This document shows, one piece after another, positions 29,977-55,440 of a DNA stretch of 64,000 bases. How positions within the stretch are numbered: position 1 is the first letter of the stretch; every line of letters begins with the position of its first letter. The notes beneath the pieces were generated by a model. It searched no databases. It was given only the letters and a program-made list of their open reading frames with translations, and had not been told where the DNA came from. This DNA comes from Arthrobacter endolithicus (GTDB taxonomy: Bacteria > Actinomycetota > Actinomycetes > Actinomycetales > Micrococcaceae): positions 124,001 to 188,000 of the forward strand of contig NZ_JAPNLH010000001.1 in assembly GCF_026627425.1 (NCBI RefSeq), read 5' to 3'. Position numbers and translations under genes: made by a program.

Positions 29977-31291
29977 CCCCGAAACCTCCAGGCCCGAAAC
30001 CTCCAGGCCCGAAACCTCCAGGCCGGAAACCTTCAGGCCGGAAACCCCGGGCGGTAAAACTCCGGGCCCGGGCAGCGCCGTGACGTTCAACGATCTCCTG
30101 TGGAAACGCCTGGCCCGTGGAACAGACGCGGCCCGGCGCTGGCCATGGTGGATCCGCATTGCTGTGATTTACTTGGCGGCGAGGTTCGTCTCGTACTGCA
30201 TTTTCGAAGCCGTCTCACTGCATCAAGGGATCAGTCCCTGGGGCGGCGCGCAGCCGGATTATCTGCATTTTATCGGGATCTGGGACAGCACTTGGTACAG
30301 AGACGTCTTTGACAACGGCTATCCGAGTGTCATTCCACGGGATGCCGCTGGCGTAGCGCGGGAAAATCCGTGGGCGTTTTACCCTCTGTATCCTTTTTTG
30401 GTCCGTGGGCTGGGCGCCGTCACCTCCCTGGGCTGGCTGGTGCTGGCTCCGGCGGTCTCGCTGGCGGCCGGCTTGGCCGCCTCCCTGCTGATCTACCGGC
30501 TCTTTAGCCGCTTTGCCTCAACTTCGACGGCGACGTGGGGCACCGTCTTCTTCGTCACGTTCCCCGTTTCTCCCGTCCTGCAGGTGCCCTACGCCGAATC
30601 CCTGAGCCTGCTGCTCTTGGCCGCGGCGCTCTACCTGCTGGTCCGGCAGCGGTATCTGTGGGCGATGCCGGTCGTCGTCCTGATGTGCCTGAGCCGCCCG
30701 GCAGGCGTTCCGTTTGCCGCCGTCGTCGGTGCGCATCTTCTGTTCCGGTTTCTGCGTCGAAGAACCGTCCAGATCCGGACCACTGAGCTGCTCAGCGGCA
30801 TGGCGCTGCTGTTCGTTAGCGCGCTGGCTGCATTTGCATGGCCGTTGATCGCCTGGGCCGCGACGGGTCAACTCTCGGCCTACACTGACACTGAGACTGC
30901 GTGGCGCGGGACTGGGCTACAGCTTTTCTCGCCATGGTTCGCCACCGGACGGCAGCTGTTTGGCCCGGTGCTGGGGCCAGTGGCGCCCGTGGTTCTGGTG
31001 CTGCTGTTCGCGTTGTACATAGGCTCACGCGGCGTGCGGAACATCGGCAGCGATCTGCAGCTGTGGTGCATCGCGTACTTCGGGTACATTCTGGCGGTCC
31101 TGCAGCCGCAGACGAGCACCTTCCGAATGCTGCTGCCGTTCTTTCCGCTGGCCCTTGCGGCCGCCTTCGTTTCGGATTCGCGGGCTTACCGCGGCACTGT
31201 TGTGGTCCTGTTCATCCTGCTGCAGATTGTCTGGGTCGCCTGGCTGTGGTCTTGGGCCGAGCTGCCTGGCGGGGGAGACTATCCGCCGTAG
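29969..31291 (+). CDS. PIG-V-like membrane mannosyltransferase with repeated N-terminus
   Basis: A protein of about 440 residues. The first 30 residues are low complexity, mostly RPETS repeated, coded by 15-bp units. The body is a multi-helix membrane protein, with the loop GIWDSTWYRDVFDNGYP after the first helix and ENPWAFYPLYPFLVRGL after it. This is the arrangement of PIG-V/GPI-mannosyltransferase-like GT-C enzymes that use polyprenyl-phosphate-mannose. About nine more helices follow. The start is uncertain: ATG 29969 is preferred, but its Shine-Dalgarno is only GGAG immediately before it; GTG at 29963 is another option. It overlaps tag. The acceptor is unknown. Confidence 0.8.
   Translation: MPDPETSRPETSRPETSRPETFRPETPGGKTPGPGSAVTFNDLLWKRLARGTDAARRWPWWIRIAVIYLAARFVSYCIFEAVSLHQGISPWGGAQPDYLHFIGIWDSTWYRDVFDNGYPSVIPRDAAGVARENPWAFYPLYPFLVRGLGAVTSLGWLVLAPAVSLAAGLAASLLIYRLFSRFASTSTATWGTVFFVTFPVSPVLQVPYAESLSLLLLAAALYLLVRQRYLWAMPVVVLMCLSRPAGVPFAAVVGAHLLFRFLRRRTVQIRTTELLSGMALLFVSALAAFAWPLIAWAATGQLSAYTDTETAWRGTGLQLFSPWFATGRQLFGPVLGPVAPVVLVLLFALYIGSRGVRNIGSDLQLWCIAYFGYILAVLQPQTSTFRMLLPFFPLALAAAFVSDSRAYRGTVVVLFILLQIVWVAWLWSWAELPGGGDYPP
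29981..30048 (+). repeat. 15-bp tandem repeat, about 4.5 units, at mannosyltransferase N-terminus
   Basis: Units GAAACCTCCAGGCCC begin at 29981, 29996, 30011 and 30026, with a partial unit to 30048; the last ones differ by one or two bases. They encode ETSRP in frame. Confidence 0.9.
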
Positions 31292-46720: not shown

Positions 46721-47425
46721 ATGAGTATTCCGCCGGGTGAGTCCGCCCCGAACGTCTCCGTCGGTGAGCTGAATGCACGCTATGACAAGTTCGTCGTAGA
46801 CCTCTTAGGCGTCATCGCTTACGGAGAACTTTCCGCCTTTGAGCGCTTGTCCTCCGACGCCCGGTATTCACCCACTCTGCATGACCGGGCCGCTCTGGGC
46901 CGGATGGCCGTGACAGAGTTCGAGCATTTTGAGGTGGTCCGGGGCCGGTTGGCTGAGATGAACATGGACGTAGAGCTCGCGATCCGCCCGTTCCAACCAT
47001 CAATTGACGCTTTCCATGACCGCACCCGGCCCGCGGACTGGTACGAATCGCTCATGAAGGCATACGTTGTCGACGCCATTTCCGAGGACTTCTACCGCGC
47101 CATCAGTGAATTTTTGGACCCACGCACACGCGAAATCATCAAGGCGGTCCAGACCAATGAGGAGTCCGGTAGGCTGCTGCAGGAGCGGCTGAAGAAAATG
47201 CTGGCCGACGACCCCCGGCTGGCCTCCCGGCTGGCTTTGTGGGGCAGACGATTGGTCGCGGAGGTGCTGACCCAGGCACGGCAAGTGGGGACGGAACACA
47301 CCTTCCTGCGTGGCTTAATGGCCGACGACGACGTTCCAGCCGCGCGCGACGAGGTCAGTACGCTGATGGCGCAGCTGACCAAGAACCACTCCCGGCGGAT
47401 GAGTCTGTTGGGCCTGACTGCCTGA
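46721..47425 (+). CDS. Ferritin-like MiaE_2 family protein
   Basis: A 234-residue helical protein. Ferritin-like carboxylate/His positions are visible (YGELSAFERL, then VTEFEHFEVVRGRL with ExxH, later SEDFYRAI and TEHTFLRGL), matching the actinobacterial MiaE_2 (ferritin-like fold, tRNA-hydroxylase-like) family; activity is unproven. ATG 46721 is clear. The last codons and the stop lie inside a 21-unit CTGN array, so the C-terminus (LGLTA) is partly coded by the repeat, and gain or loss of units there could change it. The Mycobacterium homologue neighbours rhlE. Confidence 0.85.
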   Translation: MSIPPGESAPNVSVGELNARYDKFVVDLLGVIAYGELSAFERLSSDARYSPTLHDRAALGRMAVTEFEHFEVVRGRLAEMNMDVELAIRPFQPSIDAFHDRTRPADWYESLMKAYVVDAISEDFYRAISEFLDPRTREIIKAVQTNEESGRLLQERLKKMLADDPRLASRLALWGRRLVAEVLTQARQVGTEHTFLRGLMADDDVPAARDEVSTLMAQLTKNHSRRMSLLGLTA

Positions 47426-47497
47426 CTGCCTGTCTGCCTGACTGCCTGCCTGACTGCCTGTCTGCCTGTCTGCCTGTCTGCCTGTCTGCCTGACTGT
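47414..47497 (+). repeat. 4-bp tandem array (CTGN), 21 units, across a stop codon
   Basis: Twenty-one consecutive tetranucleotides of form CTGA, CTGC or CTGT fill 84 bases. In the second half CTGCCTGT alternates regularly, giving an 8-bp period. The MiaE_2 stop codon (47423-47425) is in the third unit. Because units are 4 bp, changes in copy number before the stop would shift the frame. Confidence 0.95.
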
Positions 47498-47575
47498 CGT
47501 GGGCCGAGGAGCATCTCAGGCCATGCCAGGCGGCGCCGGCGGGAGAGTCTATCGAGCGAAAGGCGGCAGAGCCAG

Positions 47576-51829: not shown

Positions 51830-51953
51830 TGACTCCACGCTACGTTACTGGTCCGCAGGGCGGCTGAGCGAAAGCTGGGAGTTGCGTGAACGGCCCTGCG
51901 GCGCCGGCAGGGCACAGCAACTGTGAACCCGGCTCTAGATATCCGGTATGGCT

Positions 51954-52005
51954 CCCGCTGAACGGTACTTTCCCGCTGAACGGTACATTCCCGCTGAACG
52001 ATATT
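51954..52005. repeat. 18-bp tandem repeat, about 3 units, at the thiE 3' end
   Basis: CCCGCTGAACGGTACTTT (51954), CCCGCTGAACGGTACATT (51972) and a shortened third copy (51990) reach the thiE stop codon at 52004-52006. It is mainly non-coding. Confidence 0.85.
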
Positions 52006-52765
52006 AGGCGGCGCTGAAAGCCGCCTCGCCAAGAGCGGCGCGCAGGGCCTGCGCGGCCGCCGTCGGATCCGTAGCCTCGGTAATGGCGCGTACGACGACG
52101 ACGCGGTCAGCCCCCGCGGCGACGACCTGTTCGATGTTGCCGAGGTCAATGCCGCCAATCGCGAACCAGGGAATCCGCGTTTTCAGCGAGGCGGCGTACC
52201 GCACCATTTCCAGCCCGACGGCGGCGCGGCCGGGCTTGGTGGGCGTGGCCCAGACCGGGCCGACGCAAAAGTAGTCCACGGCGCTGCCGGCTTCCGCGCG
52301 GGCCTGCGCGCCGTCGTCACCCGTCCAGCCCCCCGGGCCCGCCTGCACGCCGGCTGCGGCACTGGCCTGTTCCGGCGTGTGGCTGGAAAGACCAACCGCC
52401 GTGCTGTGCGGCAGGAGTGTCCTGGCATCAGCCACCGGCAGGTCCTGCTGACCGATATGAAAGACCGGCGCACCGGATAATGCGGCGATGTCCGCGCGGT
52501 CGTTAACGGCCCAGAGCCTGCCGTATTCGGCAGCAACGTCGCGTAACACAGCCAGCAATTCCAACTCCTCGGCGGCCTGCAGGGTCTTATCCCGCAGCTG
52601 GATGATGTCCACACCGCCGGCGTACGCTGCTCGCACAAAATCCGCAAAATCTCCTTGCTCCGCGCGGGCATTGGTGCACAGGTACAGTCTCGCGTCGGTG
52701 ACGGAGGGCTGCGTGGCAGGGGCCGGATCCGACGCGGTTAAGGGATTGGAATAAAGACTCGTCAT
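52004..52765 (-). CDS. thiE: Thiamine-phosphate synthase
   Basis: A 253-residue TIM-barrel enzyme. It shows [14 protein letters not shown] near the start, [10 protein letters not shown] (pyrimidine site), [40 protein letters not shown] and a C-terminal [27 protein letters not shown] phosphate loop. It joins HMP-PP and thiazole phosphate to thiamine phosphate. An Ala/Gly-rich insert (about 145-165) is longer than usual. The ATG at 52765 lies about seven bases from a TAGTCT -10, so the mRNA may be leaderless; the TPP riboswitch is transcribed away from it and would not control it. Confidence 0.95.
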
Positions 52766-52778: not shown

Positions 52779-52785
52779 GTTCAGT

Positions 52786-52912
52786 ACCGCGGGAGCCGGA
52801 GAAGCCGGCTGAGAGGGCACCTGGCGTCACGCCGTGTGCCGACCGAATTGTTCCGCTGGGCTTGGTCCCAGCGGACGGAACCTGATCCGGGTCATGCCGG
52901 CGTAGGGAAGGA
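52786..52912 (+). ncRNA. TPP riboswitch (THI element)
   Basis: The conserved core is present in order: GCGGGAGCCGG, GGCTGAGAGGGCAC (pyrimidine-sensing arm), a variable stem, CCGACCGAAT, an extra GC stem (CCGCTGGG...CCCAGCGG), ACCTGATCCGGGTCATGCCGGCG (pyrophosphate-sensing arm) and GTAGGGAAGG. It leads thiO-thiS-thiG. The 3' end contains the purine-rich stretch GGGAAGGAAAG, which is also the likely ribosome site of thiO, so control of translation start is plausible. Confidence 0.96.
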
Positions 52913-52922
52913 AAGCACGCGA

Positions 52923-54278
52923 GTGGACACTGAACGACTGGTCACTGAACGGCTAGTCACTGAACGGCTGGGCGAGGAACGTCTGGGCGAGGAACGTCTG
53001 GGCGAGGAACGTCGCGCCGAAGAACAGTGCATCGAAAAACAGTGCATCGAAACGGACGTCGCCGTGATCGGTGGTGGAATCGTTGGACTGGGCATCGCGT
53101 GGGAGGTTCAGCGGTCCGGCCGGTCTGTGACGGTTATTGATCCCGGTCCCGCCACAGGAGCGACCTTTGCTGCGGCAGGGATGCTGGCACCGGTCAGCGA
53201 GCTGCACTATCAGGAAGAGGAGTTGCTGGGGCTCACACTTGCCTCGGCCGCACTGTGGCCCGATTTTGTGGCGCCGCTGATTGCCGCCGGACATGTGGAC
53301 ACCGGGTTCCGGACGACGGCGACGCTGGTGGTGGGCGCCGACGCCGGCGATAGGCAGGCGCTGGCGGATCTGCGGCAGGTGCAGCTTTCGCACGGCCTGG
53401 ACGTGGAGCAGGTGAGTATCCGGACAGCCAGGGTGGAGGAACCGTTGCTGGGCCCGCAGCTTTCCTGCGTATACAGAATTGCACAGGACCACCAGGTGGA
53501 TCCCCGCGCGGTGGCGACGGCGCTGAGGGTGCAGCTGAACATCGTAGCCGGAGCGGGCGGCCGGCTGCGGGAAGAGCAGACGTCGATCCGCCGGATGGCG
53601 ACCGGATTGCTGCACGAAGACCCGGATAATCCATCCTCCCAAGTGAACGGGGTGCAGCTCGATGACGGGCGGACGGTGACCGCCGGGGAGGTGGTGGTGG
53701 CCAACGGGCTCGGTGCATCAGCGCTGGCGGGGCTTCCGACTGGACTGAATTTACCGCTGCGCCCGGTATACGGCGATATCCTCCGGCTTCGCGTCCCGGA
53801 ACATCTGCGACCGTTGCTCACTGCCACAGTTCGCGGGCTGGTCCGGGGCGTGCCGGTATACATCGTCCCGCGCAACGACGGCACCGTGGTGATTGGGGCA
53901 ACCCAGCGCGAGGATGATCCCGGCGGGCCAGGCGGCGGAAGTCCTGGCAGTGCAGGTCCGGGGCGGGTTTCGGCCGGCGGCGTGTATTCGCTCCTGCGCG
54001 ATGCCCAGACCCTGGTGCCGGCCGTTGCCGAGTTGGAACTGCTGGAGACCACCGCGCGCGCCCGGCCCGGAACGCCGGACAATGCGCCGCTGCTGGGCCG
54101 GGTTGCCGGAGTTGACGGGGACGTTGCGGGGCTCATTATTGCCACCGGATTTTTCCGGCATGGAGTACTCCTCACACCCATCGCGGCGCAGATCTGCCGG
54201 CAGCTGATGGACGGTATCACCGCACAGGACTGGACGGGTTTTCGGCCCGGCAGGTTTTCGGACAAGGAGAAAAAATGA
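52923..54278 (+). CDS. thiO: Glycine oxidase ThiO with repeated N-terminal extension
   Basis: A 451-residue flavoprotein. The FAD-binding motif VIGGGIVGLGIAWEVQRSG begins only near residue 48; before it stands an extension of eight degenerate pentapeptides (TERLV, EERLG, EEQCI types) coded by 15-bp units. Later motifs are ATFAAAGMLAPVSEL and the C-terminal IIATGFFRHGVLLTPI. ThiO makes dehydroglycine for thiazole synthesis. The frame is open upstream through the riboswitch, so the GTG at 52923 just after it is the sensible start; an internal start after the repeats is possible. It overlaps thiS (ATGA). Confidence 0.93.
   Translation: MDTERLVTERLVTERLGEERLGEERLGEERRAEEQCIEKQCIETDVAVIGGGIVGLGIAWEVQRSGRSVTVIDPGPATGATFAAAGMLAPVSELHYQEEELLGLTLASAALWPDFVAPLIAAGHVDTGFRTTATLVVGADAGDRQALADLRQVQLSHGLDVEQVSIRTARVEEPLLGPQLSCVYRIAQDHQVDPRAVATALRVQLNIVAGAGGRLREEQTSIRRMATGLLHEDPDNPSSQVNGVQLDDGRTVTAGEVVVANGLGASALAGLPTGLNLPLRPVYGDILRLRVPEHLRPLLTATVRGLVRGVPVYIVPRNDGTVVIGATQREDDPGGPGGGSPGSAGPGRVSAGGVYSLLRDAQTLVPAVAELELLETTARARPGTPDNAPLLGRVAGVDGDVAGLIIATGFFRHGVLLTPIAAQICRQLMDGITAQDWTGFRPGRFSDKEKK
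52929..53048 (+). repeat. 15-bp tandem repeat, 8 degenerate units, at start of thiO
   Basis: Units begin every 15 bases from 52929 to 53034. They fall in three sequence groups (ACTGAACGGCTAGTC type, GAGGAACGTCTGGGC type, GAAAAACAGTGCATC type) that grade into one another. The array starts two codons after the proposed GTG. Confidence 0.92.
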
Positions 54279-54514
54279 TTCAGATCCGGCTCAACGGTCA
54301 GCAGCACCAGGCTCCGGCCGGCCAACAGGTGGCTGACCTGGTGACTTTGCTGACAGGCAGGGCTATCGACGCGGCAGGGCGAGCGTGCGACGGCGGACGG
54401 CTGGGTGTTGCTGTTGCCCTCAACGCAGCCATTGTTCCGCGCAGCAGCTGGTCCGCCACCGAGCTGGCGGATAACGACGAGGTGGAAATCGTGACGGCTG
54501 TCCAGGGCGGATAG
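54275..54514 (+). CDS. thiS: Thiamine sulfur-carrier protein ThiS
   Basis: A 79-residue ubiquitin-like protein ending in Gly-Gly (TAVQGG), the residue pair that is adenylated and thiocarboxylated to deliver sulfur for the thiazole ring. The N-terminus IQIRLNGQQHQAPAGQQVADLV and a later GVAVALNAAIVPRSSW with DNDEVEIV fit ThiS. It is slightly longer than usual. ATG 54275 overlaps the thiO stop and has AAGGAG upstream. No thiF is present in the window; MoeZ 2.4 kb away may activate it. Confidence 0.95.
   Translation: MIQIRLNGQQHQAPAGQQVADLVTLLTGRAIDAAGRACDGGRLGVAVALNAAIVPRSSWSATELADNDEVEIVTAVQGG

Positions 54515-54588: not shown

Positions 54589-55440
<852 letters not shown>

Follow-up and report, generated by a model that had tools for sequence, protein, structure and literature searches.

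The window, i.e. the whole stretch of DNA that was analysed, comprises 64,000 nt of the forward strand of Arthrobacter endolithicus (contig NZ_JAPNLH010000001.1, positions 124,001–188,000), and the part of it considered here carries genes of thiamine biosynthesis (Table 1). The product of the gene that starts at 52923 passes the curated cutoff of the ThiO profile TIGR02352 (280.5 bits against 250.8), and thiS and thiG lie downstream of it, which provides the thiazole operon context expected of thiO; the identification as ThiO in the preliminary description is thus borne out, and, judged by profile and context, the gene is a true ThiO, the first of the order thiO-thiS-thiG. The whole enzyme domain is that of glycine oxidase ThiO as represented by TIGR02352 and by the solved structures 6j38, 1ryi and 1ng3, with the Pfam DAO match starting at residue 45. 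Its nearest named relative by this gene is Arthrobacter terrae Z1-20, whose ThiO is 90% identical. The gene order and the TPP riboswitch upstream are shared with relatives; what differs here is the region ahead of the enzyme domain, which runs to 49 residues from the start to the GxGxxG motif and includes an array of pentapeptides, whereas the median in our survey is 19.

Table 1. Features of the thiO locus, in window coordinates.
Feature	Position	Strand	Basis
thiE, divergent	52004..52765	-	TIGR00693, 182.5 bits, cutoff 145.1
TPP riboswitch aptamer (RF00059); long additional hairpin in the middle	52779..52925	+	cmscan span
Ribosome-binding site AAGGAAAG, 7 bases upstream of GTG	52908..52915	+	inspection of sequence
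thiO, glycine oxidase, 451 codons, GTG start, TGA stop	52923..54278	+	TIGR02352, translation, ORF end
Array of eight in-frame 15-base units (pentapeptides), coding minisatellite	52929..53048	+	lag-15 identity, TRF, A. terrae version
First beta strand and GxGxxG FAD-binding motif (DVAVIGGGIVG), onset of the enzyme domain	53055..53087	+	Pfam DAO, alignment of 20 sequences
thiS, overlapping the thiO stop	54275..54514	+	TIGR01683, 61.8 bits, cutoff 37.45
thiG	54610..55440	+	PF05690, 336.6 bits

At gathering scores, cmscan of the 64 kb window returned no match. A local cmscan search places a TPP aptamer directly upstream of thiO with 45.2 bits and an E-value of 1.2e-7, below the gathering score of 54.3, and the match is full-length (model positions 1–105 of 105). 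Because of this E-value and the full-length match, we treat the element at 52779–52925 as a real TPP riboswitch although it scores below the gathering line, in agreement with the earlier claim that such a riboswitch lies directly before the GTG. In other words, it resembles RF00059 in its complete aptamer and its position directly before a start codon, and it differs in its long extra hairpin and its score. The same element precedes thiO in nine of the ten loci scanned, this one included, with two scores above the gathering line and seven below; the tenth locus (L027) gave no TPP match at E 0.001.

The array itself begins two codons past GTG 52923 and reads, in frame, TERLV TERLV TERLG EERLG EERLG EERRA EEQCI EKQCI. 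Compared with itself at a lag of 15 bases, the array is 83% identical across its 120 bases, a value reached by none of 20000 codon shuffles (best 50%), and among the 120-base stretches of the 64 kb window it is the top lag-15 stretch, with no separate stretch its equal; Tandem Repeats Finder reports it in overlapping rows of period 15 and period 30. These results and the translation confirm the position and the eight repeats behind the GTG as originally described. With tandem units far above chance, a unit length that is a multiple of three and an open reading frame free of stops, the array has the properties of a coding minisatellite. A mobile or dispersed repeat family was considered as its source and rejected: a search of its own genome with the pentapeptide block gave no second convincing match, the next best having an E-value of 0.22. 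As a separate observation, another gene, in L075 (11113–11168), contains a 15-base unit, CGCTGAACCGGCTGG, that is repeated perfectly 3.7 times and looks like the opening units of the ThiO array (CACTGAACGGCTGG), by chance or through a shared seed.

How unusual such an N-terminus is can be gauged from a survey of 111 ThiO loci, 92 of them from family genomes (295 genomes searched, 171 with a ThiO match at 1e-60, loci being taken from 92 of these) and 19 from further named records, some of the same species. We parsed 105 of these loci, the other six having been dropped for want of a match to the patterns for the riboswitch end and the FAD motif, and define the leader as the residues from the start codon to the first G of GxGxxG. 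Leader length ranges from 8 to 52 residues, and the array-bearing leader is the second longest. The earlier figure of 46 extra residues was right in that the leader is lengthened and overstated in size, as the excess over the median is about 30. In A. terrae (G004, locus L014) five related units stand where there are eight here, and a terminal CAGTGCATCGAA piece that is doubled here is single; the three other genomes of the genus among the five searched have leaders of 11–16 residues and no array. Among the genomes examined, the array is thus found only in A. endolithicus and its closest relative. The preliminary description raised the possibility that every distant relative has an identical array. 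This is excluded: when the order was searched with the array and the enzyme start as query, 42 of 297 genomes matched, and only the genome of A. endolithicus matched from residue 1 (the A. terrae genome is not among the 42, presumably because it was not drawn into the search).

Repeats in the leader extend beyond these two species. Among 102 distinct leaders, seven show at least 13 of 15 bases matching at a lag of 9–30, where codon shuffles predict 0.15, and one of another genus (L040) carries a separate 18-base array of unrelated sequence. From these seven leaders, the unrelated array included, it follows that repeats arose in the ThiO leader on more than one occasion. Leader lengths also appeared to cluster at 11, 16, 21, 26, 31 and 36 residues; we rejected a rule of five-residue steps, since among 48 disjoint nearest pairs 26 differ in length and only six of those 26 differ by a multiple of five, with about five expected by chance. 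Shared ancestry best accounts for the clustering. Short repeats are also seen elsewhere in ThiO, in predicted surface loops of the enzyme from other Arthrobacter species (L019, L031 and L025), for example VPTGCVPTGC and APAGGTSTGAAPAGGT.

A good ribosome-binding site, AAGGAAAG, stands at the end of the riboswitch with GTG 52923 seven bases on, and all 105 parsed loci have an in-frame ATG, GTG or TTG 7–14 bases past the riboswitch's AGGGA; the proposed GTG start is therefore upheld by both its ribosome-binding site and the usual spacing of the family. From that start to the FAD motif, the only in-frame ATG, GTG or TTG in the thiO of the window is GTG 53064, and A. terrae has none. The argument from the lack of a later start rests on A. 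terrae, because 78 of 102 leaders do hold such a codon somewhere ahead of GxGxxG. Given the position of the start and the A. terrae sequence, the array is almost certainly translated, from GTG 52923. Since it lies downstream of the start codon, the distance from riboswitch to start is unaltered, and the suggestion that the array changes the spacing between the riboswitch and a later start is not supported.

Tandem repeats are abundant in the surrounding genome as well. Using Tandem Repeats Finder at score 50 with triplet-shuffled sequence as control, we counted 52 separate arrays in 364 kb of the A. endolithicus genome, window included, a density of 143 per Mb, compared with 13 per Mb for shuffled sequence, and period 15 was the most frequent (15 of the 52). 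The corresponding counts are 31 arrays, seven of period 15, in 160 kb of A. terrae; 19, six of period 15, in 240 kb of G238; 44, eight of period 15, in 200 kb of G225; and 15, four of period 15, in 200 kb of G226. When, more strictly, only exact runs of at least 16 bases are counted, period 15 has seven in A. endolithicus, the most among the periods tested, five in A. terrae (where period 21 has seven) and four in G225 (as many as at period 31), and G226 has none; one run is present at nearly every period in G238, in shuffled sequence too, and there is no excess at period 15, a pattern that probably stems from a masked stretch. The repeat excess is clear in three of the five sampled genomes and weak in two. 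Period 15 leads in A. endolithicus, ranks first or close to first in several relatives, and exceeds periods 12 and 18.

Several further arrays of the window sit in long open frames. For example, 4.6 copies of a 15-base unit encoding PETSR pentapeptides lie at 29978–30046 in an open frame of 454 codons and rank second among the lag-15 stretches of the window. At 47412–47498, an 8-base unit (GCCTGACT / GCCTGTCT) is repeated about eleven times across the 3' end of a MiaE-like gene (46721–47425) and the gap downstream; as eight is not a multiple of three, changes in copy number would alter the last residues of the MiaE-like protein. Additionally, 2.7 copies of an 18-base unit (TCCCGCTGAACGGTACAT) occupy 51953–52000, directly past the end of thiE, so that a second tandem repeat adjoins the same thiamine genes.

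We consider the array to be an ordinary coding minisatellite that grew by slippage in the length-tolerant N-terminal leader of ThiO and probably has little functional weight, and we give this reading a probability of roughly 85%. A 15-base stretch near the start would have been duplicated in the common ancestor with A. terrae, through slippage or unequal recombination, and the array would then have lengthened separately in the two species. Frame-keeping changes would have been retained, because other changes would break the enzyme. The added piece would be translated into a charged tail, probably a helix, that lies apart from the catalytic fold and leaves catalysis and riboswitch control unaffected or nearly so. 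As judged from the leaders compared, the N-terminus accommodates the array just as it accommodates unrelated leaders of different length. The uneven strength of the repeat excess among the sampled genomes counts against this reading.

The most serious alternative, which we nevertheless think improbable, is that the array was selected as a part of the protein, a single charged helix serving oligomer contacts, solubility or contact with ThiS or ThiG. The extension had been described from the outset as strongly charged and helix-prone, and both properties hold up: the charged fraction of the leader is 0.50, more than in any other of the 99 leaders compared (median 0.15; 0.48 in A. terrae), and AlphaFold2, run with 20 sequences (mean pLDDT 77), predicts a single helix for residues 2–36 at modest confidence, with ten-residue block means of 75, 73, 62 and 50, followed by a well-modelled first strand. 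A charged helix is therefore a plausible model of the leader, and its high charge relative to the median could mean selection on that helix. By inspection, the arginine of one unit falls 3 and 4 residues ahead of the glutamates of the next. The acidic-plus-arginine pattern is also common to the arrays of A. endolithicus and A. terrae despite their differing DNA units, and its retention can be read as constraint on the sequence. Against selection, the majority of other species in the genus and family manage with 8–27 residues of unrelated sequence, several units of the array contain a glycine, and the leader is unconserved in the alignment.

Less probable again is a role akin to that of contingency loci, in which slippage would shift the number of units between strains, alter the N-terminal 50 residues in charge and length, and thereby set ThiO yield or stability beyond the control exerted by the riboswitch. 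Copy number does differ between close relatives, eight units against five in A. terrae, a comparison between species, each being represented by a single genome in the collections. For the coding minisatellite that we favor, we infer that copy number varies within the species too and that the tail is neutral; the array is most likely not a new control device.

We give still less credence to a function of the array as RNA or DNA, whether as part of the expression platform of the riboswitch or as a spacer that tunes translation of the first codons. In the lowest-energy fold, ACUGAAC in unit 1 does pair with GUUCAGU, which lies at the riboswitch's 5' edge; however, the array alone shows no more stable folding than shuffled sequence does (z -0.69), the riboswitch and array together reach a z of only -1.77, and by inspection A. 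terrae has the same 5' edge with units that lack ACUGAAC, so that the pairing is lost there. The riboswitch is present in relatives without an array as well, and a promoter scan found no promoter. Folding thus lends an RNA function no support, and we set it aside. Finally, the earlier proposal that translation begins past the array, leaving it an untranslated spacer, has next to nothing in its favor, as its one candidate start, GTG 53064, lies downstream of the array but within beta strand 1 of the FAD fold, with no ribosome-binding site visible before it on inspection, A. terrae has no start-type codon in that stretch, GTG 52923 has the usual spacing, and the units of the array keep frame.

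The coding minisatellite in ThiO belongs to a known kind. Prokaryotic satellites that encode amino-acid repeats, with repeat lengths divisible by three, have been described (PMC6749651), and the present array resembles them in having such a unit within a gene and a copy number that differs between relatives; it differs from them in its place at the very start of the coding sequence of a housekeeping enzyme, downstream of a riboswitch, and in a unit of only 15 bases. A literature search found no description of such an array in ThiO or of an N-terminal extension of ThiO, and the array adds another case to the coding satellites of prokaryotes. Its main value is as a caution: arrays as clean as this at the start of a gene look designed, yet short in-frame repeats are frequent in this soil actinobacterium and are located where a protein tolerates them. 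For the family, the leader of ThiO, from riboswitch to FAD motif, is free to vary over a sixfold range of length, which is useful to know when start codons are annotated.
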